Shown here: in pieces, positions 537 through 23,768 of the stretch | Layout of the letters: each line of letters opens with the position of its first letter | How positions within the stretch are numbered: the first letter of the stretch is position 1 | DNA from: a virus | Reading direction: 5' to 3' (one strand) | Length of the DNA: 23,768 nt | IMG/VR virus record: IMGVR_UViG_3300023301_000102 | Location: 1-23,768 of that record | Made by a program: the position numbers and the translations under genes | Notes under the pieces: model-generated | Told to the model about the DNA's origin: nothing | The model's input: only the letters and a program-made list of their open reading frames with translations | Database searches by the model: none

Positions 537-944
537 TTATCCACACTTTACGCTAATGGTACTGATCTCCTTAGCCCTCGCCCCAGTAAGCGACTTACGG
601 GTCGAGCGATCACGTTCTAATATAAACGTCTCGGTAGATATGACGTGGAATACCTTTGGGTACTTTATAACGATCCACGTTGGCCTGTTCTTGTGTGCAC
701 TATAGTCGGGCGTGCCGGGCGTGCCGACAGTGTGCCGAAGTAATATGCCTTTGTCTGATCGTGACAGGTTGGCCACGGTCTCTTGTTCCAACTCGAAGCT
801 CTTAAAGGGAATGCTACTCTTACCTCGCGTGTCTTTTAACTCAAAATTTCCGTCTAAACGGTTCGTGTTCCACCACTTGCGAAATACGATACCGAAATCA
901 GATTCGTCTTTATTGTTTTGTTTTGGTAACTCTGGTAGTTTCAT
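537..944 (-). CDS. Putative phage recombination endonuclease (Holliday-junction-resolvase-like, 135 aa)
   Basis: The protein has an early acidic residue region (Glu14, Asp16), 'FELKDTRGKSSIPFK' at 34-48 with Glu35-x-Lys37, a conserved glutamine at 54, then 'GTPGTPDY' (Asp80) and 'IVIKYPKVF' (91-99). It ends with a basic 'RKSLTGARAKEI' segment. This order resembles small phage PD-(D/E)XK nucleases annotated as Holliday junction resolvases or RecU-like proteins, which cut branched DNA during replication and before packaging. That family link is from memory of the motif pattern. The only methionine is the start at 944, so the gene overlaps the end of the helicase gene by 35 bp. It is the last of the DNA-metabolism genes before the block of tiny genes. 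Catalysis is not certain because the classical DxxExK spacing is not clean. Confidence 0.5.
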   Translation of the reverse strand: MKLPELPKQNNKDESDFGIVFRKWWNTNRLDGNFELKDTRGKSSIPFKSFELEQETVANLSRSDKGILLRHTVGTPGTPDYSAHKNRPTWIVIKYPKVFHVISTETFILERDRSTRKSLTGARAKEISTISVKCG

Positions 945-2061
945 GTAAATAAATATGTGGGTTAAAGTCCTTCCCGGATTGAATCGTGTCGTATATACGC
1001 TGATCCCAACGTCCGGCGATTAAATAATAAAAAAACACTGGTGCGAGATGTTCGAGGTGTCTTGCTCGTCCTACTGCCTGAGTGTGGAAAGTACAGCTAT
1101 GACTCATGCTTGCGAACGCTATGGCCCCGAACATATAACCATCAAATCCGAATAACATTGAGGCCTGACAAATAAAAAAACATTCTTCTGCGGCTTGGGC
1201 TTGTCGCTTCACCAGATCGGCATCCTTCGTTCGGCCGTCTAGAACAAAAACAGGTTTCTCCTTGCCAAGCTCTAGTGCCAATGAATCAATCTGGTCTGTG
1301 TAGTGTACAGCCACGATGAGTTTCTTGTAGCCTAACTCCAGTATATATTTATGCTTGTTCTGTTGCTCGTGGCGATGTTCGTGCATCCAGTTAACTAACT
1401 CGTATTTTGGCTTCTCATACTTCGGTTGCTTAACCTTGATAATCGTAGATGTGGCTTTCGGTAGATACGAAACACAATCACGCAGAGAAACAATATCAGC
1501 GTGACGCTCAAGGAATGGCCGTATCTTAATCCGCCAGTCGGGCTTAGGCATCCAAGCGGGATACGGTAAAAATGGGAGTTTCACCTGCTCAAAGAACATC
1601 GATCGCCACAGTTTCCAGTCGTAATAGACACCCACATAGCAGAGCGCCGTGTGTAGTGACCATGCGTTCTGGCGGATCATGGTGGCCGATAGCCCCAAAA
1701 AGTCGCAATCTGGGTTGCCTTTAAGAATGGTATAAAGCGCCGTAGCTAATTGGCTTCTGCCTTTGGCGAACAAAGGAGAGAGAAAATATTGCAACTCGTC
1801 GACAACAATCGCAGTGGGTTTCTTGATAGTGTGCGCAACTTTTTTAAATTCTTCTTTGCTCAAAACAGTAGCCTTTGTCTTAAACGCCATCCAATCCTTC
1901 TTGTTCTGTTTCGGTGTGATGATATAGGTATTGCCGCTACGTTCCGGCATATCAACCCACAAGGCGGCTGGGAGCGATTTTCCCACGCGCATTTCCCAAT
2001 TCAGCAGAGCTTTCTTCGGGTTTTTACCGAGAAACGCTTGTTGGTGAGGTAATGGTTGCAT
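910..2061 (-). CDS. SF2 (SNF2/UvsW-like) DNA helicase/ATPase, 383 aa
   Basis: A superfamily 2 helicase core is visible. The Q-like N-terminus is 'MQPLPHQQAFL' and a degenerate Walker A, WEMRVGKS, lies at residues 22-29 in the place of SNF2 'DEMGLGKT'. Motif II is DELQ (88-91) in place of DEAH, motif III is GLSAT (123-127), and motif VI is QAVGRARH (328-335) with two arginines. These motifs couple ATP hydrolysis to movement on DNA, so a role in unwinding, branch migration or fork restart is likely. I chose the ATG at 2061. A longer frame from 2208 would add 49 basic residues unlike the family and would overlap the upstream gene almost throughout. The chosen start overlaps the coiled-coil gene by 38 bp. 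With the polymerase and ssDNA-binding genes it could form the replisome. Confidence 0.85.
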   Translation of the reverse strand: MQPLPHQQAFLGKNPKKALLNWEMRVGKSLPAALWVDMPERSGNTYIITPKQNKKDWMAFKTKATVLSKEEFKKVAHTIKKPTAIVVDELQYFLSPLFAKGRSQLATALYTILKGNPDCDFLGLSATMIRQNAWSLHTALCYVGVYYDWKLWRSMFFEQVKLPFLPYPAWMPKPDWRIKIRPFLERHADIVSLRDCVSYLPKATSTIIKVKQPKYEKPKYELVNWMHEHRHEQQNKHKYILELGYKKLIVAVHYTDQIDSLALELGKEKPVFVLDGRTKDADLVKRQAQAAEECFFICQASMLFGFDGYMFGAIAFASMSHSCTFHTQAVGRARHLEHLAPVFFYYLIAGRWDQRIYDTIQSGKDFNPHIYLHETTRVTKTKQ

Positions 2062-2332
2062 CTTTATATAATAGATAGGTGCTTTCTGTTGCCTTAGCGG
2101 TGCCTTTCTCTTGCTCAGTGTTCTTGGCGAGCTTGACCTTTTCTTCGAGCTTAGCCACGGCAGGAGAATACTTCCATGACGTTTTATGAGCAACGGTAAA
2201 TGAGCCAAAATTGTCGAGTTTGTTCTTTTTAAGCTCGTCTAGTATCTGCGCGCGGAGCGTAGCTTTTTCTGCTTCAAGTTCTTTGAAACGTGCGTCTAAC
2301 TCTATGTACTCAAGTAATAATTTTTGATTCAT
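2024..2332 (-). CDS. Hypothetical phage coiled-coil protein (102 aa)
   Basis: Residues 1-38 are heptad-like and rich in Leu, Glu and Lys (MNQKLLLEYIELDARFKEL and onward), predicting a helical coiled coil. A compact segment with 'FGSFTVAHKTSWKYSPAV' (about 42-59) follows, then a second charged helix and a Ser/Thr-rich tail. I recall similar small proteins next to RecB/Cas4-type nucleases in other phages, where they may be accessory factors for recombination, but I cannot name a domain. The gene lies 11 bp after the nuclease gene and overlaps the helicase start by 38 bp, so it is embedded in the DNA-metabolism operon. An ATG start without a Shine-Dalgarno sequence matches its neighbours. Confidence 0.7.
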   Translation of the reverse strand: MNQKLLLEYIELDARFKELEAEKATLRAQILDELKKNKLDNFGSFTVAHKTSWKYSPAVAKLEEKVKLAKNTEQEKGTAKATESTYLLYKDATITSPTSVSR

Positions 2333-2343
2333 TGATTTTATTT

Positions 2344-3075
2344 TTAACCTTTCTTACAATAACCGACCTCTTTTGTAACTCCTGATAATACGTCTTGCTT
2401 CTCGGACTCTTTTCGTGCGAGAGCTTCCCCAGCTTGCTGAAATAGCTCCGGACTTTCTTGCTTAATTTTAGTGTAGTCATCTGATATTTCCTTTGCTGTT
2501 TTAATAATTTCTTTTTTCATTTTCTGCCTCTGCCATTCTGCGATCCGACGGTTAAACACCTGAATTTTGCCGGTGAACTCAATCTGATTATTCTTGCCGA
2601 TAAGCGTGTGGCCTCCAAATTCCCGTGTCTCCTTTCCGTCCCTCGTTTCAATCCATACCAAGCGTACCCACGGGTCGACTTTTTTATATTTAATCTTCGT
2701 GAGTAACGAGTAAGTAACAAGTTGGTTTGCTTTCGCACAACGTAAGTCAGTCCACGCTTCTTTCCCTGTTTTAAACTCAACGATCGCCTTACGTTGCTTT
2801 GAAAATGAGTCTAGGACACCGAGAAAGGGTACCCCGCCTACTTTGACCTCAATACGGTGTTCCATGAGCTTGTAGCGTGGCACGCGGTCAAGTACGGGGT
2901 CTTTAATGCCGTCTTCGAGCATACGAGCAACCTTTTTCCCAAAAATAGTTTCTTTATTCTCGAATGACGGACCGTTGAAGTAGTAGCGTTGTCGATACCC
3001 TTCCCTATTACTCTGCCACAAGGACATTTGACTGTACGACAAATATTTTTTTGGTAGGTTGTATATAACTTTCAT
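2344..3075 (-). CDS. PD-(D/E)XK nuclease, RecB/Cas4-like (243 aa)
   Basis: The fold signature runs in order. 'YLSYSQMSLWQSNREGYRQRYYF' (11-33) is the usual N-terminal helix that places the first motif. 'FGKKVARMLED' (45-55) follows, then GVLDSF with Asp89, VEFKTGK with Glu100 and Lys102, and 'QLVTYSLL' (118-125), the QxxxY motif that follows the active site in RecB-family nucleases. Such enzymes cut DNA ends with two metal ions and often work with a recombinase or helicase. No Cys cluster like the Cas4 iron-sulfur site is present in the core. The C-terminal third is a charged helical tail. I prefer ATG 3075 to the in-frame GTG at 3087 because the GTG falls in a hairpin. The gene sits between the ssDNA-binding and coiled-coil genes. 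Confidence 0.85.
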   Translation of the reverse strand: MKVIYNLPKKYLSYSQMSLWQSNREGYRQRYYFNGPSFENKETIFGKKVARMLEDGIKDPVLDRVPRYKLMEHRIEVKVGGVPFLGVLDSFSKQRKAIVEFKTGKEAWTDLRCAKANQLVTYSLLTKIKYKKVDPWVRLVWIETRDGKETREFGGHTLIGKNNQIEFTGKIQVFNRRIAEWQRQKMKKEIIKTAKEISDDYTKIKQESPELFQQAGEALARKESEKQDVLSGVTKEVGYCKKG

Positions 3076-3082
3076 AATAAGA

Positions 3083-3102
3083 CGCACGGTTGTACGCGTG
3101 CG
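3083..3102. promoter_or_regulatory. Hairpin between ssDNA-binding and nuclease genes
   Basis: CGCACG (3083-3088) and CGTGCG (3097-3102) make a perfect GC-rich 6-bp stem with an 8-nt loop. It lies after the ssDNA-binding gene stop (3116) and only 7 nt before the nuclease ATG (3075) in the direction of transcription. It lacks a following T-run, so it looks more like an RNA processing or translation-control element than a full terminator. Confidence 0.4.
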
Positions 3103-3115
3103 GCCTATATAAAAA

Positions 3116-3589
3116 CTAGCTAGGAAAAGCCTCGTCGAGAGTAACGTCTGTTACAGGTGGCGTTGTGCCGCCTTTTGCTTGGTCTTCTGTATCAAGTTCT
3201 AGAACAGTCTTACTTTCTGTTGTTAGTTTCTTTCCGTAAAATCCAAAAATCTTTGTTGGACTCAAGCCCTTCTCAGCAGGGTCTTTAAGCTCGATAAGTT
3301 CTACAGTCAAAGGATCGCCAATGCGAAGATCGTCTGTCTGAGAGAGAATAAACGAAAGTCTTTTAATTCCAACGTTTACCATTTTACCGTCTTGCTGTTC
3401 AAGAGTGATACCACGCTGTTCTTTAAACTTCCCTTCAGCCGCGCGATAAAACACATCGCGAATATACCCCTGTGATTTGTCACCTACGTTTTCAAATTTA
3501 GCCCAGTTGCTCCATGCGAGATCACGAGGGCGTGTAAGTGAGTCTTTCTTGTAATCACCAAAAATGTCACCTTCTATTTTCTTTGTCAT
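3116..3589 (-). CDS. Putative phage single-stranded DNA-binding protein (157 aa)
   Basis: The central part, 'WSNWAKFENVGDKSQGYIRDVFYRA' (26-50) followed by 'ITLEQQDGKMVNVGIKRLSFIL' (61-82) and 'RIGDPLTVELIELKD' (89-103), has the alternating beta pattern expected of an OB-like barrel. The C-terminus is an acidic, flexible tail ending VTLDEAFPS, like the acidic hydrophobic tip with which SSB proteins recruit partners. I have no exact family match. The call rests on fold pattern, tail and neighbourhood (primase-polymerase, nuclease, helicase). ATG 3589 is chosen because a promoter at 3633-3661 would start RNA near 3626, which excludes the GTG at 3628. It would be an abundant replication protein, which fits its own promoter. 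Confidence 0.6.
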   Translation of the reverse strand: MTKKIEGDIFGDYKKDSLTRPRDLAWSNWAKFENVGDKSQGYIRDVFYRAAEGKFKEQRGITLEQQDGKMVNVGIKRLSFILSQTDDLRIGDPLTVELIELKDPAEKGLSPTKIFGFYGKKLTTESKTVLELDTEDQAKGGTTPPVTDVTLDEAFPS

Positions 3590-3632
3590 ATGTTGAATGT
3601 TGCTTAGTGAATAATATTTGTACAACACTTAC

Positions 3633-3661
3633 ACTATAACGCACTTGCATACCGTTCGCAA
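3633..3661 (-). promoter_or_regulatory. Sigma70-type promoter for the ssDNA-binding gene, overlapping a palindrome
   Basis: Read on the minus strand, TTGCGA (3661-3656) is followed after exactly 17 bp by TATAGT (3638-3633), giving 4/6 and 5/6 matches to the consensus. RNA would start near 3626, leaving about 37 nt of leader before ATG 3589. The palindrome ACCGTT-CGC-AACGGT (3651-3665) covers the -35 box, so a bound dimer would block polymerase. Confidence 0.65.
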
Positions 3662-3664
3662 CGG

Positions 3665-3877
3665 TTAGTATGTGGATAAGATTTCGTCGAGGGTGTCTTC
3701 GGTCACTTCCTTGTGAATGTCGCCTTGATCGTACCTCTCAGCGAGAAGTTGAACGGTCATTGTCCCCGTAGTTGTGTACCAGTTCAGTCTGTGTGTACCC
3801 TTAACAAAAGACTTCATACTCGTCATTCTTTGTTCGCCTAAATCAGTCCAGCCGTATGCTAGTATTTTGTCTTTCAT
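3665..3877 (-). CDS. Hypothetical protein (70 aa)
   Basis: The frame opens at ATG 3877-3875, sharing ATGA with the TGA stop of the primase-polymerase, and closes with TAA at 3667-3665. That stop lies at the edge of the palindrome of the next promoter. The 4-bp overlap implies translational coupling to the polymerase. The sequence (MKDKILAYGWTDLGEQRMTS...) is mixed alpha/beta with an acidic end (KEVTEDTLDEILSTY) and no motif I recognise. Because it is coupled to the polymerase it may be a replication accessory protein, but that is only inference. Confidence 0.6.
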   Translation of the reverse strand: MKDKILAYGWTDLGEQRMTSMKSFVKGTHRLNWYTTTGTMTVQLLAERYDQGDIHKEVTEDTLDEILSTY

Positions 3878-6006
3878 AAATTTTTAAATTGTTCTTCCAT
3901 AACATCAACGACCACTGGCGTTCCTAAAAGCATGGTCATCGTTGCGTCTGTTGGGTAATAACGGTTCGCTCGTGATCCTCCGACCATGATTCGGCGCTTT
4001 TCAAGTTTTAAAATACTTCTCAAAATTTCACCGACTAGGACGGATTCATAAGGATTAATTTCTTTTTTAAAATCAACATCCTTTTGAACGCCTTTTTGAT
4101 ATGCCATTGTGGTAGTTACGCCATCAAGTCTTTCTGCTTCCGTTAGACAAAAATACCAATCAACAATAGTTTCTTCAAAAGGGCTAACAATTCGTCGAAG
4201 CCCCTGCTCTATTCTCAAAGCGTCTTCTGAAAAATCGTATGTCGTTTCCTTTTTCACAACAAGTCGGTGGTACGCTTCAGCGAATAATTGATCTCGGTTT
4301 TCTTTGAGCCATCCGATGTCAGCAACTTTTCGGCACCGAATAGGAATCCATCTACGATTACCTGTTTCGTCTTTAAGATATTCTGTCTGATTCGTGGTCA
4401 TGGCAAAGACACACCTGCGTGGGAACTCCATAGAGTTACGCGCATACGGTGGTCTGAACTTGTCTGATTGAGTGGTAATGATTGCCTTCATTTTCTTCAC
4501 CTCTGTTCGTGAAAGCGTCTCTCCTTCTGAAAACTCGATAATAGCTTTCCCAGCAAACTGCATAAAAAAGTCTTTTGAGTCAGTGGACATCGTTGTTTCA
4601 ACATGCCAACCTCCACCAAGAATATTGAGTGATGTCGATTTCTTTGTCCCTTGGTCTCCTTCGAGGACAAGAACGTAGTCAAACTTGCACCCCGGTTCAA
4701 TAAGACGGTGTACAAGCCCTTTGAGCCAATTTGACCCTATGGAGTGCGTCAATTCGCTGTCATCAGCACCATAGACCTCATGAAGCCATGAGTCGAGCCG
4801 ATATGTTTTGTCCCAAACAAGAGAGGTAATCCAATCCTTTGCTGAATCATGAGAATTGTCGATAGATACTTTCATGATAGCGTCATAGACCATTTCTTTA
4901 CTTATTTTATTAAAGACAGGAAAAAGTATTTGTATCTGACTTTGAATTTCAAGAGCATCGCTATCTTTAAATTGTCGTCCATCAAGCTCAAACACAGTTT
5001 TAAACTCATCGAATCGAAAACGATTGCGGAATTTTTCATGTTTGTTAATGATCCGGCAAGTATTCTCAAGATTTTGAACAGGTATCTTGTCACCATTCTT
5101 ATTCACAGAGAAAAGGAGATCTAAATTGGGATTTTCTTTTTTAAATTTAGTTTCATGAGATTCGTACACATTTTCACACTTTGTTATCGCTTTATTGATT
5201 GTGCGAGTGCGATAGTCTTGGCGCGCCTGGGTCTTCGTTCGGTTACCGATTGGCGAAGCAATCCAAATACGCTCCATTTGAGCGGCGTTCTTACCTGTCC
5301 AAAAGGCAAGGTTCATACAAAGTGCCATATCAGCAGAGCTGTCATCATTACCATAATCTGAAGTGTCACCACCATAGACAGCCTTTGCTTTTGGTGATTT
5401 GAGCATCTTGCGAATTACGCTACCGTCATCCAATGCCTCACCCTGTGAGTCATGGTGAGGCATTGGTGTTTTTGCCCAAGGATAACCCAAGATAGAAAGA
5501 ATCCGATTCATTTCTTCGGTAGTTACTTTTCTTATTTCGGTTATCTTGTTGTACAGCTGTTCAGTTACTGTGAAATACCTAGCAGAAGTATAAAATTCGT
5601 ATTTTTCTTTATTTTGTCCGTTAGGTAGAGTGTATTTATTAGGAACAGGATCAAACGGCTCAGTTATTTCAAAATAAAGATGCAATCCAGTCTGACTTGG
5701 TGAAATTTCAGTATAGGTTTGAGATTCTAAAATAAATTCAGCAATAGTCTCTTTTTCAGGATGTTCGATTTTTCCATTTTTTAAACAATGGTCTAAATCA
5801 ATACCCAAAAGAGTTTTATCTTCATCAAACATAATGCCAACATTCTTTGAGTTTTTTTCAGATACTTCTTTAAAGGTACTCCAAGTTTTTGGATCATTTG
5901 ATTTTGCCTTTCGCCCGTTCACTTGATAGGGAACTTTTGTGAGGTTTCCATCAACGGTTTCGTACCTCCAATTAACCCAGCGTTTTTGGTTTTTAAATTT
6001 GTCCAT
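3874..6006 (-). CDS. Primase-polymerase fused to VirE-type SF3-like ATPase (710 aa, NrS-1-like replicase)
   Basis: The N-terminal part carries an archaeo-eukaryotic primase/primpol core: 'WVNWRYETVDGNLTKVPYQVNG' (10-31), a metal-binding DxD at Asp70/Asp72 (LLGIDLDHC) and 'SPSQTGLHLYF' (102-112). Residues about 215-275 (TSDYGNDDSSADMALCMNLAFWTG to YRTRTINKAI) look like the helical-bundle domain next to the primpol in the NrS-1 phage polymerase. The C-terminal half is a VirE/D5-like P-loop ATPase: Walker A EGDQGTKKST (449-458), Walker B IIEFSE (489-494), sensor TTNQ (537-540) and GNRRW (549-553) as likely arginine finger. No zinc-binding Cys cluster is present near the primase core. The enzyme would prime and extend DNA and may translocate on it. 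Its stop is the only TGA among the annotated genes and overlaps the next start. It is the first long gene of the left operon. Confidence 0.9.
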   Translation of the reverse strand: MDKFKNQKRWVNWRYETVDGNLTKVPYQVNGRKAKSNDPKTWSTFKEVSEKNSKNVGIMFDEDKTLLGIDLDHCLKNGKIEHPEKETIAEFILESQTYTEISPSQTGLHLYFEITEPFDPVPNKYTLPNGQNKEKYEFYTSARYFTVTEQLYNKITEIRKVTTEEMNRILSILGYPWAKTPMPHHDSQGEALDDGSVIRKMLKSPKAKAVYGGDTSDYGNDDSSADMALCMNLAFWTGKNAAQMERIWIASPIGNRTKTQARQDYRTRTINKAITKCENVYESHETKFKKENPNLDLLFSVNKNGDKIPVQNLENTCRIINKHEKFRNRFRFDEFKTVFELDGRQFKDSDALEIQSQIQILFPVFNKISKEMVYDAIMKVSIDNSHDSAKDWITSLVWDKTYRLDSWLHEVYGADDSELTHSIGSNWLKGLVHRLIEPGCKFDYVLVLEGDQGTKKSTSLNILGGGWHVETTMSTDSKDFFMQFAGKAIIEFSEGETLSRTEVKKMKAIITTQSDKFRPPYARNSMEFPRRCVFAMTTNQTEYLKDETGNRRWIPIRCRKVADIGWLKENRDQLFAEAYHRLVVKKETTYDFSEDALRIEQGLRRIVSPFEETIVDWYFCLTEAERLDGVTTTMAYQKGVQKDVDFKKEINPYESVLVGEILRSILKLEKRRIMVGGSRANRYYPTDATMTMLLGTPVVVDVMEEQFKNL

Positions 6007-6009
6007 AGT

Positions 6010-6120
6010 TTATTCCAATACAAAAGGAGTAACCCATATTGGACTGGTTCGGCAGAACCAATAACTACGAGTTACTCCTTTTGTACAATAATACTCTATT
6101 AAGGTGCCGAATTTGTCCAT
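6010..6120 (-). CDS. Putative leader ORF (36 aa) in front of the primase-polymerase
   Basis: ATG 6120-6118 opens a 36-codon frame (MDKFGTLIEYYCTKGVTRS...) ending at TAA 6012-6010, three bases before the polymerase ATG. Its first four codons repeat the start of the polymerase (MDKF): the string AATTTGTCCATA occurs near 5997 and near 6111. An extended -10 box (TGG TAATAT, 6136-6128) lies exactly 7 nt upstream, so the mRNA would be leaderless and this ORF would be the first one read. The coding region contains a 15-bp inverted repeat. It may be a control peptide whose translation opens the hairpin and couples to the polymerase, or a small protein in its own right. It may also be non-coding, with the polymerase start duplicated by chance rearrangement. 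Confidence 0.4.
   Translation of the reverse strand: MDKFGTLIEYYCTKGVTRSYWFCRTSPIWVTPFVLE
6019..6085. repeat. 15-bp perfect inverted repeat with nested hairpin
   Basis: TACAAAAGGAGTAAC (6019-6033) and GTTACTCCTTTTGTA (6071-6085) are perfect complements, separated by 37 nt. That spacer itself holds TGGTTC (6045-6050), GGCA, GAACCA (6055-6060). In leftward RNA the 3' arm ends 12 nt before the polymerase ATG. Each arm contains AGGAG on one strand, so the structure can hide or expose a Shine-Dalgarno-like string. It could be an attenuator, a regulator site or the remains of a small mobile element. Confidence 0.7.
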
Positions 6121-6180: not shown

Positions 6181-6236
6181 GCCTCATTTTGGTACCAAAC
6201 GGTACCAAAAGCCTCGTTTTGGTACCGTTTGGTACC
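6181..6236. repeat. Perfect 20-bp inverted repeat built from four GGTACC units
   Basis: GGTACC occurs at 6191, 6201, 6221 and 6231. Arms 6191-6210 and 6217-6236 are perfect complements around the 6-bp centre GCCTCG. A second GCCTC at 6181 precedes the first arm, so 'GCCTC(A/G)TTTTGGTACC' is also a direct repeat. The 46-bp palindrome could extrude a cruciform or fold as an RNA hairpin. Its place in a divergent gap next to an AT-rich tract (about 6237-6300) suggests a replication origin element or a regulator cluster. Confidence 0.85.
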
Positions 6237-6300
6237 GGAAATACGCATAAAAACACGCTTTTTTTGAGGATTTGTTCAATTTGCCTAAAAAAGTGCTTCA

Positions 6301-6538
6301 CTATGGCACCGTACGGTGGCTAAGAATAAGGGATTGCCATAGCTGCCATAGTAAAGTGACGTTTTCCCTATAAACCCTATATGGATATTGTGTCCTATCT
6401 TTCTTTTATTCTATACCCATTCATATAAAGAATAGGTATGGTAACTATGGCAATAGTAGTATGGTGGCTATGGTTAGCGGTTTTTTTACTGCCATAGTGA
6501 TTTTGTGTTGCTATGGCAAGCTATGGCAAGCTATGGCA
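6301..6538. repeat. CTATGGCA iterons in the divergent control region
   Basis: CTATGGCA is found on the plus strand at 6301, 6445, 6511, 6521 and 6531, and as its complement TGCCATAG at 6335, 6344 and 6490. A near copy, CTATGGTT, is at 6468. The last three are exact 10-bp tandem units (GCTATGGCAA type), one helical turn apart. Between them lie a near-perfect inverted repeat, ATACCCATTC (6413-6422) with GAATAGGTAT (6430-6439), and AT-rich sequence. The motif is not part of a gene. It fits an iteron-type origin or an operator array for a phage protein that binds cooperatively on one DNA face. Confidence 0.8.
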
Positions 6539-6583
6539 GGGCATTTGGGCAACGACACATGAGTTAAAGAAAAAATGCAGTTG

Positions 6584-6592
6584 TGGTATAAT
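6584..6592 (+). promoter_or_regulatory. Rightward extended -10 promoter, probably leaderless
   Basis: TGG-TATAAT (6584-6592) is a perfect extended -10 element. Only 7 nt separate it from ATG 6600, so RNA would begin at or next to the start codon. The -35 position (6564-6569, TTAAAG) is a weak 3/6 match. The tandem CTATGGCA iterons end 46 bp upstream, where an activator could touch the polymerase. Confidence 0.7.
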
Positions 6593-6599
6593 TCTAGAA

Positions 6600-6938
6600 A
6601 TGGATAAAGACTCAGAAATAAGTGGGGGCAAGCTGGATACTAGATTCAAAAAAGGGTTTGACCCAAAACGGAACCTCAAGGGTAAACCTGTGGGCAAATT
6701 GAGCTACATAACAGAAATGGATAACGCCATTGATGAATACGCAAAGCTGCATAACCTAACCTCGGCACAAGTTAGGTTGGATATTTACATGAAGGGCGCA
6801 GAGGAAGCGTTGAAAGGAGAGTATAGCTTTTACCGAGACTACATGGACAGAAAACATGGGAAACCGATACAGCCAATAACAGGCGAAGACGGCGGGCCTA
6901 TTCAAATTCAAGGTGTTGAAATTTCTATACAAAAGTAA
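6600..6938 (+). CDS. terS: Putative terminase small subunit (112 aa)
   Basis: The N-terminus is polar and basic with 'TRFKKGFDPKRNLKGKPVGK', like the 'F..G.NPNGRP' arm of many phage small terminase and DUF5681-like proteins. A helical middle (YITEMDNAIDEYAKLHNL, then VRLDIYMKGAEEALKGEYSFYRDYMDRKHGKP) and a C-terminal beta tail (PIQIQGVEISIQK) follow. Small terminases bind the packaging site as rings and stimulate the large subunit. I start it at ATG 6600. An in-frame ATG at 6513 would place 29 extra residues over the iterons and upstream of the -10 box. The stop overlaps the large-subunit start by one base (TAATG), a coupling typical of terS-terL pairs. The position, directly before terL, is the strongest evidence. 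Confidence 0.7.
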   Translation: MDKDSEISGGKLDTRFKKGFDPKRNLKGKPVGKLSYITEMDNAIDEYAKLHNLTSAQVRLDIYMKGAEEALKGEYSFYRDYMDRKHGKPIQPITGEDGGPIQIQGVEISIQK

Positions 6939-8272: not shown

Positions 8273-8584
8273 ATGACACGAACAAAAAAAAATAAAGAAG
8301 AGTTAAGTGTTGAAACACCTGTTGAGGAAACACCTGTTGAGGAAACACCTGTTGAGGAAACACCTGTTGAGGAAACACCTGTTGAGGAAACACCTGTTGA
8401 GGAAACACCTGACACAGTTACAGACACCGAGTTTATTTTTGGTACAAAGCAAACACCTGAAGTCAGAGTCTTAGACGAAAAAGGTATTGTGATTCGTGTC
8501 TACGATTTACATGAGCATGGAAAGGGGTATAAACAATTAGCAGAACAGTTTGTTTCAGACAGATCAGGTTATTCTATCAAGTAA
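8273..8584 (+). CDS. Small protein with VEETP repeats and a terL-like peptide (103 aa)
   Basis: The N-terminus is basic (MTRTKKNKEE). One VETP and six perfect VEETP units follow (residues about 13-46), making an acidic proline-rich linker. Next comes 'TDTEFIFGT' (about 50-58), identical to terL residues 193-201. The C-terminal part, 'PEVRVLDEKGIVIRVYDLHEHGKGYKQLAEQF', looks like a small folded beta-alpha domain of the kind found in short phage proteins between terminase and portal. The function is unknown. An extended linker joining a basic tip to a folded domain suggests a tether or adaptor in head assembly or packaging. Repeat number may vary between relatives because the DNA repeats are exact. 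Confidence 0.75.
   Translation: MTRTKKNKEELSVETPVEETPVEETPVEETPVEETPVEETPVEETPDTVTDTEFIFGTKQTPEVRVLDEKGIVIRVYDLHEHGKGYKQLAEQFVSDRSGYSIK
8321..8410 (+). repeat. Six perfect 15-bp tandem repeats (VEETP)
   Basis: The unit GTTGAGGAAACACCT is repeated six times without a mismatch at 8321-8410, preceded by a shortened 12-bp copy at 8309-8320. It is in frame and encodes VEETP. Perfect identity, including third positions, points to recent expansion by slippage. Confidence 0.97.
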
Positions 8585-15057: not shown

Positions 15058-17109
15058 ATGAGAGAGAAAAAAATCAATCTTTTTGTCAGCGGTGTCCAAA
15101 ACTTGATATCTAATGAGATTATTGCTTCTGACGCTTCCTCTGGTTCAATGTCATGGAGAACAAAGGACGGCCGTATTGAACTTGTGAGAGGTAGGCAGGA
15201 GACTGGTATCAGCACCACAAACCCCACGCTTGTAACTGAGGCTCTTGACGAGCTTACAACAGAAGCGGGCGATATGTTGGTACTTAGTCAGTCAGAGGTG
15301 GAATCTTCGGTGGTCGGAGCTGTCTATGCACAGATTTTTGCTCCTAGACAAGACGGAACGCGGATGCACTATTGCAAAAAAAATAATAAAATCCAAGTTA
15401 AACAAGGTGATAATTGGGTCGATGTAATCACTGGCTTAACTAACGAATCAGAAGTATTCTTTGCTCCGTATGCCTCACTCGCCGGGAACTATCTTTTTGT
15501 TGGATGTCGGGACGGTCTGTACAAAATAAATCTAGCCGATCCTTTGTCTTACAAGGATATGTATAACTCTACTAAGAATCACAAAGGGTACATGTTAATA
15601 AATGAAGCTCGCATGTTTTTGTGGAATAGGTTTGACCCACCAGGAGATCAAACGGCTATTTATCTTTCAAAAATTGATCCACAGGGGACTAACTACACAA
15701 CAGTAACAGCCGAAATTCTTGGGGTATCAGGGAGTACCGTGTACACAGGTACATTGGCAGCCTCAACAGGATTAAGATTTGTTTTTGGAATAAGTGTCGT
15801 TGGGACAACGGCCGCAGGTGTTGAGACATTTGTTGATAATCAAAATGGAGTTTTGACGAGCGACAAAGGAGGGACGGGTACAATAAATTATACCACTGGC
15901 CAGTATAGCGTAACGTTTAACGCTGCTGTTTCGTCAGGTAACGCAACGGCTACCTATCAATGGGAGGATTCAAACGTTAATGGTATCACTGACTTTACTT
16001 TCTCATCTCCTCGACTAGCAGGGGAGGGTGATTTTATTCCCCAAGAATATCTTGGTGAGCCGATTCGTAATGTTGTCCCTTTTGATGGTGCGTACTACTC
16101 GTTTAAAACAACCTCAGTTTATGAATTGAACTTAACAGCAGATGACACCAACGCAACTAATGCAGTATTTCGGTCTGACATTGGGGTCAAGTCTCTGAGA
16201 GGAGTTGTGGCTACCAGTAAAGGTATCGCATACATTGATACCGCAAACCCAGACAAACCGATACTTTCAATGCTCGTTCGTAACCCAGTGGGAGGTAACC
16301 TCGAACCAATAAATCTAACTCCGTTATTTGCTTGGGAAAATTACATCTTTGATCAGTGTGTAATGGACACATGGGGTGAGTACATACTCGTGTCGTGTCG
16401 GACCACTAGTTCGGATAATAATGATCGTTTGGTTTTGGTTAATACTTCTCAAAAATATTCTGTAGATATTACTTATTACGGTGTCAGATCATTGGCTAAA
16501 AATGAAGGGCTTTTATATGGAGGTGGCGCATTATCAGAAGCGATCTATCAGTTATTTACAAATGATGATGACCTTGCGGGGGTTATAGATAATTTTTGGA
16601 TTAGTAAAAATGACAATTTTGGTGATGATAGATTAAAAAAGGTGCGCTACTTAGAATTAAAAGGACTTATTGACCCCAATCAGTTTTTTTCGGTGTACGA
16701 GTCGTTTGATGACGGCACAAATCAACTCGTCGGTACAGTTTTAGGTAGTGCTGACTATGTAGACCTTTCTAACCCTCAATTTATAGAAACAGGGTTGGAT
16801 TCAACAAGCGGTACTGGGTTGATTGGAGGGGATGAAATTGGAGTATCAGCACTGGGCGGGGGGCTTGGTACAACCCCGACGGGTGATTCAATTCTTGCGT
16901 ATCCTTTTTATACTCGTATAAAAATAAGAACCTCAAAGTTTCGTGTACGTCGTTTGACATTCGTAGCGTTGGGTTTTGGATATTGTGCAATAAATATGAT
17001 TAAGGATTTTGACATCTTGTCTTTTGAACAGAGGATACCGGGGAGGTTTAGAATTAAAAGATATGTGTCACTTGATGGTGCTACGACAGATTTGGATACA
17101 CAACCATAA
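15058..17109 (+). CDS. Tail nozzle / tail tube B-like protein (683 aa)
   Basis: This is a long, beta-rich protein following the adaptor, as T7 gp12 and P22 gp10-type nozzle proteins do. The N-terminus 'NLFVSGVQNLISNEIIASDASSGSMSWRTKDGRIELVRGRQETG' (7-50) matches the typical opening in which a strand and loop bind the adaptor. Repeated blade-like segments suggest a beta-propeller (for example 'YASLAGNYLFVGCRDGLYKIN', 'FDGAYYSFKTTSVYELNL', 'WGEYILVSCRTT'). The region about 215-305 (TAEILGVSGSTVYTGTLAAST to SSGNATATYQWED) looks like an inserted immunoglobulin-like domain. The C-terminus has 'IKIRTSKFRVRRLTFVALGFGY'. The protein would form the tube through which DNA and internal proteins leave. 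Confidence 0.65.
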   Translation: MREKKINLFVSGVQNLISNEIIASDASSGSMSWRTKDGRIELVRGRQETGISTTNPTLVTEALDELTTEAGDMLVLSQSEVESSVVGAVYAQIFAPRQDGTRMHYCKKNNKIQVKQGDNWVDVITGLTNESEVFFAPYASLAGNYLFVGCRDGLYKINLADPLSYKDMYNSTKNHKGYMLINEARMFLWNRFDPPGDQTAIYLSKIDPQGTNYTTVTAEILGVSGSTVYTGTLAASTGLRFVFGISVVGTTAAGVETFVDNQNGVLTSDKGGTGTINYTTGQYSVTFNAAVSSGNATATYQWEDSNVNGITDFTFSSPRLAGEGDFIPQEYLGEPIRNVVPFDGAYYSFKTTSVYELNLTADDTNATNAVFRSDIGVKSLRGVVATSKGIAYIDTANPDKPILSMLVRNPVGGNLEPINLTPLFAWENYIFDQCVMDTWGEYILVSCRTTSSDNNDRLVLVNTSQKYSVDITYYGVRSLAKNEGLLYGGGALSEAIYQLFTNDDDLAGVIDNFWISKNDNFGDDRLKKVRYLELKGLIDPNQFFSVYESFDDGTNQLVGTVLGSADYVDLSNPQFIETGLDSTSGTGLIGGDEIGVSALGGGLGTTPTGDSILAYPFYTRIKIRTSKFRVRRLTFVALGFGYCAINMIKDFDILSFEQRIPGRFRIKRYVSLDGATTDLDTQP

Positions 17110-17112
17110 ACA

Positions 17113-17121
17113 TGCTATAAT
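17113..17121 (+). promoter_or_regulatory. Extended -10 promoter for the fibre genes
   Basis: TGC-TATAAT (17113-17121) is a perfect extended -10 placed in the 45-bp gap. TTGGAT at 17092-17097 (18-bp spacer) is a partial -35. RNA would start near 17128 and include a G-rich Shine-Dalgarno sequence, GGGGGGA (17138-17143). Confidence 0.6.
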
Positions 17122-17154
17122 TAAAAGATAATTAAGCGGGGGGAAAGCTTATAT

Positions 17155-17718
17155 TTGGCAACAAAAAAAATAACAGATTTAAGTGCGATCACGACCCCCC
17201 TGTTAACAGATATTTTGCCTATTGTTAGCGACCCTGCGGGGTCAGCAACAACAAGTAAGGTAACAATGCAGAATCTTGTCGGCGGGAGTATTTCTATTGC
17301 TTCAAATTTTGTTACAGCGTCTTTAAGTGCGGTTGATATAACCGGCATGACTTTTCCTATTGCGGCAAGTGAGATTTATGCGGTTCAAGTTTATGGTACA
17401 TGCTCAAAAGCGACATCAGCCGATGGTTTGAAATTTGCCATAAATTGCCCGACTTCTGCGACTATTGCAGGGATACAACTAGGTGGAGGCGCAACATTAG
17501 CCGCCCCCCTTGTCCCGTCTTTAATTTCTTCGATCAACACGCTTGGGACAACACTCGCCACTGGCGTAGGGGTTCAGGTATCTTTCGTGTTGTCGTTTCG
17601 AGTAGTGAACTCAACAAACGCGGGCAATATAAAAATTCAATGCGCTTCAGTTACAGCAAACAGCGCAACTATTAACGCTGGAACTTATATGGTTTTTAGG
17701 AAGTGTACTAATGTATAA
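17155..17718 (+). CDS. Tail appendage / fibre-type protein (187 aa)
   Basis: The N-terminus MATKKITDLSAITTPLLTDILPIVSDPAGSATTSKVTMQNL (1-41) is the common virion-attachment opening of phage fibres and appendages ('KITDL-x-A-x-TPLLTD-LPVVSD'), which docks the protein to the tail. The remainder is a Ser/Thr/Ala-rich beta region that could trimerise. The start is TTG at 17155, supported by the family-like N-terminus and a Shine-Dalgarno sequence, GGGGGGA, about 11 nt upstream. The first ATG is 36 codons later and would remove the docking motif. Its stop is 2 bp before the glycine-rich fibre gene. It may be a short fibre or an adaptor for the next protein. Confidence 0.65.
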   Translation: MATKKITDLSAITTPLLTDILPIVSDPAGSATTSKVTMQNLVGGSISIASNFVTASLSAVDITGMTFPIAASEIYAVQVYGTCSKATSADGLKFAINCPTSATIAGIQLGGGATLAAPLVPSLISSINTLGTTLATGVGVQVSFVLSFRVVNSTNAGNIKIQCASVTANSATINAGTYMVFRKCTNV

Positions 17719-22943: not shown

Positions 22944-23768
22944 ATGGGAAAAGAAAACAATACAGAATTAGAGGCACAAAATATTCTCCAGCTGGAGGCT
23001 AATTCAAAGTTGGAATCTATCGAAAAAAATACTGAATCGACACTCCTTGAGGTTTCAAAGACAAAAGATGTCCTTAATAATCTAGAGCCTGTCCTTGAAT
23101 CCATTGTTGTGAATACAGCACCAAAAGAAATACAAAAAATAGAAATTGTTGGTTTTGATTTTAGTACACTAAAGGGGCCAAAGGGCGATAAAGGCGATGA
23201 TTCCACCGTCGCAGGGCCAAAGGGTGACAAAGGCGCTGATTCCACTGTCGAAGGGCCAAAGGGTGATGATTCCACTGTCGAAGGGCCAAAAGGCGACAAA
23301 GGCGCTGATTCCACAGTCGCAGGGCCAAAGGGCGACAAAGGCGCTGATTCCACTGTCGAAGGGCCAAAGGGCGACAAGGGCGATGACGGTTCACCTGACA
23401 CCCCAGAAAACATCGTAGAGAAACTCAACACACTGACAAGACAGCTCAACTGGAAAGTGTTGAAAGATATCCCAGAAAACCTTGGAGGGAAAGGAGGTGG
23501 AGCTGGTTTTTTGCGCGAGATTTCAGATGTCGAAATATTAACCCAACCTAATAACGACCAGACTCTTTCTTGGGATTCGCTTAAACAGAGGTGGACACCA
23601 AAAACACCATCAGGAGGCGATCTCACTGTGTTTATACGAAGAGACGGCACATCTACCACCACAGCCCCTATCCCTTTTGCATTAGGGCTTACTTCTGCGG
23701 GCAACGTTACAATAGACGACGGGATTCAATCTAAATTCTTAACTGTAGGGAACGTAGGGACTCTCGGC
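22944..23768 (+). CDS. Collagen-like tail fibre, N-terminal 275 residues (cut by right edge)
   Basis: The frame opens at ATG 22944 and is still open at the window end. Residues 1-60 are a coiled coil (LEAQNILQLEANSKLESIEKN..., VSKTKDVLNNLEPVLESIV) that could start trimerisation. Residues 78-149 are collagen-like: 13-residue units GPKGDKG(A/D)DSTV(A/E), one of them shortened to 10 residues. A second helical segment (DTPENIVEKLNTLTRQLNWKVLKDIPENL, 152-180) and a glycine patch follow. Then comes 'DVEILTQPNNDQTLSWDSLKQRWTPKTP', a common phage fibre element ('L.WD...W.P'). The end resembles the start of a beta-rich tip. It is probably a trimeric receptor-binding fibre. A long opposite-strand frame here is a shadow. 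Confidence 0.8.
   Translation, partial: MGKENNTELEAQNILQLEANSKLESIEKNTESTLLEVSKTKDVLNNLEPVLESIVVNTAPKEIQKIEIVGFDFSTLKGPKGDKGDDSTVAGPKGDKGADSTVEGPKGDDSTVEGPKGDKGADSTVAGPKGDKGADSTVEGPKGDKGDDGSPDTPENIVEKLNTLTRQLNWKVLKDIPENLGGKGGGAGFLREISDVEILTQPNNDQTLSWDSLKQRWTPKTPSGGDLTVFIRRDGTSTTTAPIPFALGLTSAGNVTIDDGIQSKFLTVGNVGTLG
23175..23390 (+). repeat. 39-bp collagen-like coding repeats
   Basis: Six units encoding GPKGDKG(A/D)DSTV(A/E) lie in tandem. Most are 39 bp, the third is shortened to 30 bp, and the last is incomplete. The DNA copies are near-identical (GGGCCAAAGGGCGACAAAGG type), so unit number probably varies between relatives. Confidence 0.9.

Follow-up and report, generated by a model that had tools for sequence, protein, structure and literature searches.

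The IMG/VR virus record IMGVR_UViG_3300023301_000102 was analysed over its full length (hereafter the window), a linear stretch of 23,768 bp that is a fragment of a larger genome. Its left arm carries a set of replication genes on the minus strand, in which a primase-polymerase (primpol) gene is followed leftwards by genes for a 70-aa protein, a single-stranded DNA-binding protein (SSB)-like protein, a RecB-like nuclease, a 102-aa protein, a superfamily 2 (SF2) helicase and a 135-aa protein. Virion genes, with terminase and portal matches, lie across a non-coding stretch of approximately 500 bp from the primpol arm. An earlier model-made reading of the letters (the sequence-only reading) had likened the genes at 910-6006 to the replication system of NrS-1, a deep-sea phage of Nitratiruptor. 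We found the genes where it had placed them, and the replication set reaches further, taking in the 135-aa gene (537-944) on one side and, on the other, an origin-like region (6187-6538). Domains, active-site residues, the repeat array, the gene-order match to NrS-1 and the lack of a detected DNA polymerase were all established by computation. The features are listed below, with related genomes denoted by our handles (G000 and upwards).

537-944, minus strand: 135-aa protein that takes the place of the NrS-1 Hjc-like endonuclease and is, by position, a putative endonuclease; kept in relatives.
910-2061, minus strand: SF2 helicase of the NrS-1 NRS1_16 type (hhalign, PHROG 62).
2024-2332, minus strand: 102-aa protein, possibly Gp157-like (weak PHROG matches; a G004 neighbour matches Sipho_Gp157 at 0.001).
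2344-3075, minus strand: RecB/PD-(D/E)XK-like nuclease (conservation and weak motif alignment).
3116-3589, minus strand: oligonucleotide-binding (OB)-fold SSB-like protein with an acidic/aromatic C-terminal tip (AlphaFold2, Foldseek).
3665-3877, minus strand: 70-aa protein between the primpol and SSB-like genes, with no family match.
3874-6006, minus strand: primpol, 710 aa (domain matches, structure-profile matches, BLASTP against NrS-1).
6019-6085, no strand: inverted repeat of 20 bp (90%), immediately 5' of the primpol start (repeat search).
6187-6236, no strand: five copies of TTTGGTACC (0.25 expected), present in either orientation and with a perfect inverted repeat of 20 bp among them.
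6301-6538, no strand: iteron array of eight exact TGCCATAG/CTATGGCA in both orientations (repeat counts), a probable replication origin.
6352-6444, no strand: AT-rich spacer between a tandem iteron pair and an inverted iteron (70% AT against 59% for the record).

By homology, the N-terminal part of the primpol is assigned to the true NrS-1-type primase-polymerases with their helix-bundle domain (HBD), and its C-terminal part to the superfamily 3 (SF3) helicases of the VapE type, as in Staphylococcus aureus pathogenicity islands (SaPIs). Sequence homology was used instead of structure prediction because the full-length AlphaFold2 model, built on a four-sequence alignment, was poor (pLDDT 37). 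The protein comprises a primase-polymerase part (residues 1 to approximately 180), the HBD (223-282) and a VapE-like helicase (394-587). A C-terminal winged helix is possible at approximately 609-684, the best-scoring stretch of that poor model, which has a weak Foldseek match. Residues 8-282 match the NrS-1 N300 structures (E 3e-23 with the single sequence and 2e-34 with a four-sequence profile), and BLASTP against the NrS-1 protein gave 31% identity over approximately 285 residues (E 3e-26). The catalytic residues of archaeo-eukaryotic primases (AEPs) are kept, with D70, D72, H109 and E137 corresponding to the DxD (D78, D80), GLH (H115) and E139 of NrS-1, and the alignment also shows the RY motif and the tyrosine linked to dNTP selection. 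Far from the unrelated fold that would count against the sequence-only reading, the N-terminus is clearly primpol-like by sequence. The proposed lack of a zinc-binding domain is borne out as well: since the cysteines in residues 1-300 are only isolated ones (74, 230 and 277), neither a zinc motif nor a CxxC occurs there. An SPS loop is present (S102-P103-S104), which in the NrS-1 polymerase stands in for the zinc motif (PMC8718748).

The helical bundle that had been suggested at 215-275 corresponds to the Pfam domain NrS1-1_pol-like_HBD (PF22763, 62 bits) at 223-282, in which Y265 aligns with Y261 of NrS-1, while R256 and K258 are one residue off R249 and K251. The helicase part matches the VapE-like domain PF05272 (223 bits, residues 394-587). 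Its Walker lysine K456 and arginines R551 and R552, the two arginines in keeping with an arginine finger, are invariant, and the Walker A motif of the closest clade has the unusual form GxQG(T/S/A)(K/R)KS. The nearest solved structure to this half is 7pds ('similar to D. nodosus vapE'; E 7e-45 with the profile); the 7pds and 7ola chains among the Protein Data Bank matches of the primpol are presumably SaPI proteins. Pfam, which finds the head and tail domains PF22761 and PF22762 strongly in NrS-1, detected neither in the window primpol, and PF09250 had no match in it either. Because the C-terminal halves differ, the agreement in size with the NrS-1 polymerase (710 vs 718 aa), which had been offered as a likeness, is coincidental. 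Other IMG/VR contigs encode fused relatives (37-56% identity); no record of the cultivated-phage set covers 80% of the query at a single place. The sole relative in a genome collection (L127, CAIPPE010000165.1) is a contig binned to a Methylococcaceae metagenome-assembled genome, a weak host hint for the clade.

The iteron array, which the sequence-only reading missed, is new. TGCCATAG occurs nine times in the window (0.35 expected), eight of them at 6301-6538, against a best array of three copies in whole-record shuffles. Two iteron sets around an AT-rich region next to the primpol gene reproduce the layout of the origins of SaPIs and other phage-inducible chromosomal islands (PICIs), in which two iteron sets flank an AT-rich region (PMC6092414), and we regard the array as a probable replication origin. 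The published recognition sequence of the NrS-1 polymerase, TTTGGTTA, shows no enrichment, with 3 copies in the window against 1.8 expected; the priming site of NrS-1 has thus not been carried over. TTTGGTACC is enriched with its five copies, but it is not claimed as a priming site because TTTGGT is not clustered upstream of the primpol gene in most relatives. The cumulative GC skew has its minimum near 6 kb, at the array, but divergent transcription confounds this signal. The first rightward open reading frame (ORF; 6513-6938) has its listed start inside the iterons (6511-6538), and an ATG near 6594 may be the true start.

NrS-1 itself has an array, with 11 copies of AGTGTAAC at 17062-17377 (L032), beginning 11 bp after the polymerase gene. 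The only exact copy of the 8-nt TTTGGTTA that we found in the NrS-1 genome, at 17198, falls inside this array, where a random position would land approximately 0.9% of the time. At variance with this single copy, Chen et al. reported two copies mid-genome as a possible origin; they did not mention iterons (PMC7102993). The array is overlapped by NRS1_29, a short gene in the annotation that may be spurious. No paper found in our literature search joined NrS-1 and iterons; one on the staphylococcal cassette chromosome SCCmec (PMC7581432) mentions both, separately.

Arrays were then sought in relatives as clusters, within 400 bp, of a single exact 8-mer present in both orientations, with twelve dinucleotide shuffles per genome as the control. 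Both the scan and the comparison of layouts are exploratory, because they were chosen with the window already seen; later genomes were treated under the same fixed rule. The dominant arrays held 8 copies in the window, 10 in G001, 6 in G002, 9 in G003, 7 in G004, 9 each in G005 and G006, 8 each in G010 and G011, 7 in G012, 5 in G013 and 11 in NrS-1, compared with 3-4 in shuffles; G019, with four copies, did not exceed its own shuffles. In G018, G007 and G020, where no primpol was detected either, the scan gave no array. In G002-G004 the arrays are 2.6-3.2 kb away from primase/SF3 genes; in the others this distance is at most approximately 600 bp. The window, G001, G004, G005 and NrS-1 share a layout that combines a tandem pair (9-bp pitch), a spacer of 78-118 bp and a 42-47-bp step, parts of which are also seen in G003, G010 and G011. 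In most arrays the spacer is AT-richer than the genome, G003 and G013 being exceptions, and the closest clade has in common an iteron core GGTA(T/G)GGCA, with variants. In a wider scan of 48 VapE-type loci, some of which may be satellites or prophages, 30 had arrays of at least five copies, and 26 of these 30 lay within 1.5 kb of the VapE match.

Among the accessory proteins, the SF2 helicase is homologous to NrS-1 NRS1_16 over its full length (hhalign 98.7%, E 2e-16) and matches PHROG 62, in line with the helicase call of the sequence-only reading; its ORF is listed with TTG 2208 as the start, but ATG 2061 is the more probable one. The SSB-like protein had no match in Pfam or INPHARED at the thresholds used. 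Its AlphaFold2 model is a confident OB-type fold (pLDDT 81), which agrees with the earlier assignment. Foldseek matches of the model were predicted proteins of phages, the best at E 1e-6 and one named as an ssDNA-binding protein at 2e-5; SSBs of mitochondria and bacteria matched weakly (E 0.04-0.1). In several relatives the protein ends in EDIPF, EDVPF, EESPF or DEAF, and ends such as the first three resemble the SSB C-terminal tip. We take the gene to represent a hitherto undescribed family of OB-fold proteins whose tails resemble those of SSBs. Most relatives keep the gene for the RecB-like nuclease, and its G004 homologue matches PDDEXK_1 (E 0.0035). Against NrS-1 RecB, its best local alignment is non-significant and falls on the GxxDS...EYKTG...Q..Y motif. 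The 135-aa protein, also kept in relatives, had no match to NrS-1 Hjc. The nuclease and a resolvase-like protein had been described as additions to the NrS-1 system; NrS-1 has counterparts of both, in the same order. Within this NrS-1-like gene set, homology is significant for the helicase and the primpol only, the nuclease, SSB and terminal endonuclease being counterparts by position without significant similarity to NrS-1 proteins.

As the sequence-only reading stated, the window encodes no family A or B DNA polymerase; since the record is a 23.8-kb linear fragment, this absence was further tested in relatives. PolA was absent from all near relatives searched, and PolB and PolC from G000-G004. 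Six primpol genomes (G003, G004, G008, G010, G012 and G013) have terminal overlaps of 121-136 bp and are apparently complete. In these and three others, Pfam detected no polymerase family among 76 proteins from ORFs of at least 380 aa, a set that excluded primpol, helicase, four ORFs straddling fetched pieces and three scanned earlier. The divergent polymerases of phages KP1 and Sasha are nearly invisible to Pfam and were therefore searched with those proteins as queries, which found none in the relatives. A PF03175 search had no responding control and carries no weight. As far as this can be tested, the second polymerase that would speak against the sequence-only reading was not detected. Its absence fits use of a host polymerase as well as self-replication.

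The NrS-1-like N-terminus occurs in approximately 430 phage records. Three were opened (Sasha, KP1 and BU9), a small and unsystematic sample, and all three have an annotated or noted DNA polymerase beside it; Pfam supports these annotations weakly or not at all, and the three proteins are homologous to each other. Furthermore, the priming module is apparently exchangeable. In G005 and G006, DNA 88% identical to window 2035-3665 (the SSB/nuclease region) adjoins not a primpol gene but genes for a PF09250 Prim-Pol (291 aa) and a D5_N/DUF5906 helicase (518 aa; L026:5326-7754 and L028:2267-4695). In G018, which has a 2.3-kb terminal repeat, the SSB, nuclease, helicase and 135-aa genes accompany a CHC2+Toprim (DnaG-type) primase, and no polymerase was detected in the PolA, Pfam and KP1-type scans. 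Such exchanges are consistent with a role as primase-helicase, bulk synthesis being left to a host enzyme. The G018 primase has Toprim ahead of CHC2, an unusual order, together with a second protein (L152:3895-6008). G007 shares the SSB and accessory genes and has a CHC2-only primase-like gene plus a second protein (L030:17779-19571). G029, a fused primpol-VapE phage with PolA, was considered as a counterexample and dropped, its N-terminus being of the PF09250 type.

We moderately favour the explanation that the left arm is a tailed-phage replication module, in which a fusion of an NrS-1-type primpol/HBD with a VapE SF3 helicase acts at a PICI/SaPI-like iteron origin at 6301-6538. We infer that the helicase part, probably through a C-terminal winged helix, would bind the iterons and melt the AT-rich spacer; SaPI Rep and Cch2 bind iterons through their C-terminal domain (PMC7581432). 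Ring hexamers would then load and unwind the DNA, the N-terminal domain would make DNA primers de novo, the OB-fold SSB would coat single strands, and the SF2 helicase, RecB-like nuclease and terminal endonuclease would act at forks and in recombination. The host replicase is a more likely agent of bulk elongation than the primpol, and we consider this division of labour, with the primpol as primase, likely. Several points weigh against the favoured explanation. G008, G009 and G017 have a primpol but no exact-repeat array in the 8-mer scan, the winged helix rests on the poor model, the iterons lie in a divergent promoter region and could be operators, and the G018 scans can miss other divergent polymerases. 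The kept polymerase residues and the lack of a detected polymerase also fit self-replication.

Such self-replication, with the primpol as the sole replicative polymerase, self-priming at the origin with its helicase and SSB and independent of the host, appears rather unlikely. The catalytic, dNTP-selecting and HBD tyrosine positions are kept, the six terminally redundant genomes and the other relatives yielded no other polymerase, and processive synthesis in vitro has been described for the NrS-1 enzyme when its helicase and SSB are present (PMC8718748). Nevertheless, extension by that enzyme is weak and hindered by the HBD (PMC8718748), polymerases are annotated beside the same N-terminus in Sasha, KP1 and BU9, the accessory genes of G018 accompany a DnaG-type primase without a detected polymerase, and a Prim-Pol/helicase pair replaces the primpol beside the 88% identical neighbourhood. 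Of the NrS-1 strategy proposed by the sequence-only reading, the N-terminal homology (8-282) and the same neighbours in the same order thus stand, whereas the C-terminus is of the VapE/SaPI type, and self-priming of the whole genome is not implied by an architecture found alongside the Sasha, KP1 and BU9 polymerases and, for the accessory genes, the G018 primase. The broader notion of a phage family, including NrS-1, in which one protein recognises an iteron origin, unwinds, primes and polymerises a double-stranded DNA genome of approximately 40 kb without a host or phage replicative polymerase, is unlikely. That the repeats at 6187-6538 are operators for regulators of divergent early/late promoters, and not an origin, would suit their divergent intergenic position, the palindromic GGTACC and the operator-like inverted repeats. 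It is quite improbable, as relatives have the same layout at varied distances from the gene and NrS-1 has it on the 3' side, and as arrays are associated with VapE loci and were found in no relatives without a primpol. Recombination-dependent replication, driven by the RecB-like nuclease, SSB, SF2 helicase and endonuclease with the primpol only restarting forks, would accord with these genes being the most widely shared part across priming types, but it leaves the array and its primase/SF3 association unexplained, and we hold it to be extremely improbable.

Elsewhere, the protein encoded at window 8273-8584 contains nearly perfect (VEETP)n repeats that stem from a tandem DNA repeat; the opposite strand is open there too. 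Window 22944-23768 encodes a probable tail protein with collagen-like GPKGDKGADSTV repeats, cut by the contig end. A Cpn60/TCP-1 chaperonin-like (GroEL-like) protein is encoded in G004 (L020:4507-6186).

The NrS-1 polymerase is a model enzyme for primer-free synthesis, and its origin had been guessed only from an 8-nt motif mid-genome (PMC7102993). The position of this motif inside the 11-copy array by the polymerase gene, together with the arrays in relatives, provides a testable origin, and the arrays link the NrS-1-type enzyme to satellite (PICI/SaPI) replicons. The swaps among an NrS-1-type fusion, a Prim-Pol + SF3 pair and a DnaG-type primase make the question of bulk synthesis directly testable. 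The gene set with its repeat-built origin may be a better guide to the start of replication than the idea that one enzyme copies everything.

Compared with known systems, the window resembles NrS-1 (AB746912) in the endonuclease-helicase-RecB-SSB order on one strand, a primpol gene neighbouring the terminase, the primpol-HBD N-terminus, the SF2 helicase, the lack of an annotated DNA polymerase and an array beside the polymerase gene. It differs in its VapE-type C-terminus without detected NrS-1 head and tail domains, a primpol gene on the same strand as the accessory genes, an SSB of unrelated sequence, a different iteron and an array 5' (in NrS-1, 3') of the gene. Septimatrevirus KP1, Sashavirus Sasha and Klebsiella phage BU9 likewise have the NrS-1-type N-terminus and HBD in a primase-helicase, with helicase and exonuclease genes nearby; unlike the window, they have an annotated DNA polymerase gene, and the Sasha C-terminus is D5_N/DUF5906. 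ORF904 of pRN1 and the PF09250 Prim-Pols share the AEP fold, HBD and helicase fusion (PMC8718748), but ORF904 has a zinc motif where the window protein has its SPS loop. With SaPI/PICI Pri-Rep and SCCmec Cch2, the window shares a primase with a self-loading SF3 helicase and two iteron sets around an AT-rich region, although SaPI origins lie 3' of rep and the window array 5' of the primpol gene. Judged by sequence, the element is predicted to work like a PICI replicon but is not itself a PICI: with a terminase of its own, portal matches and further genes of virion type, it is a phage and not a satellite that depends on a helper phage for its virion.

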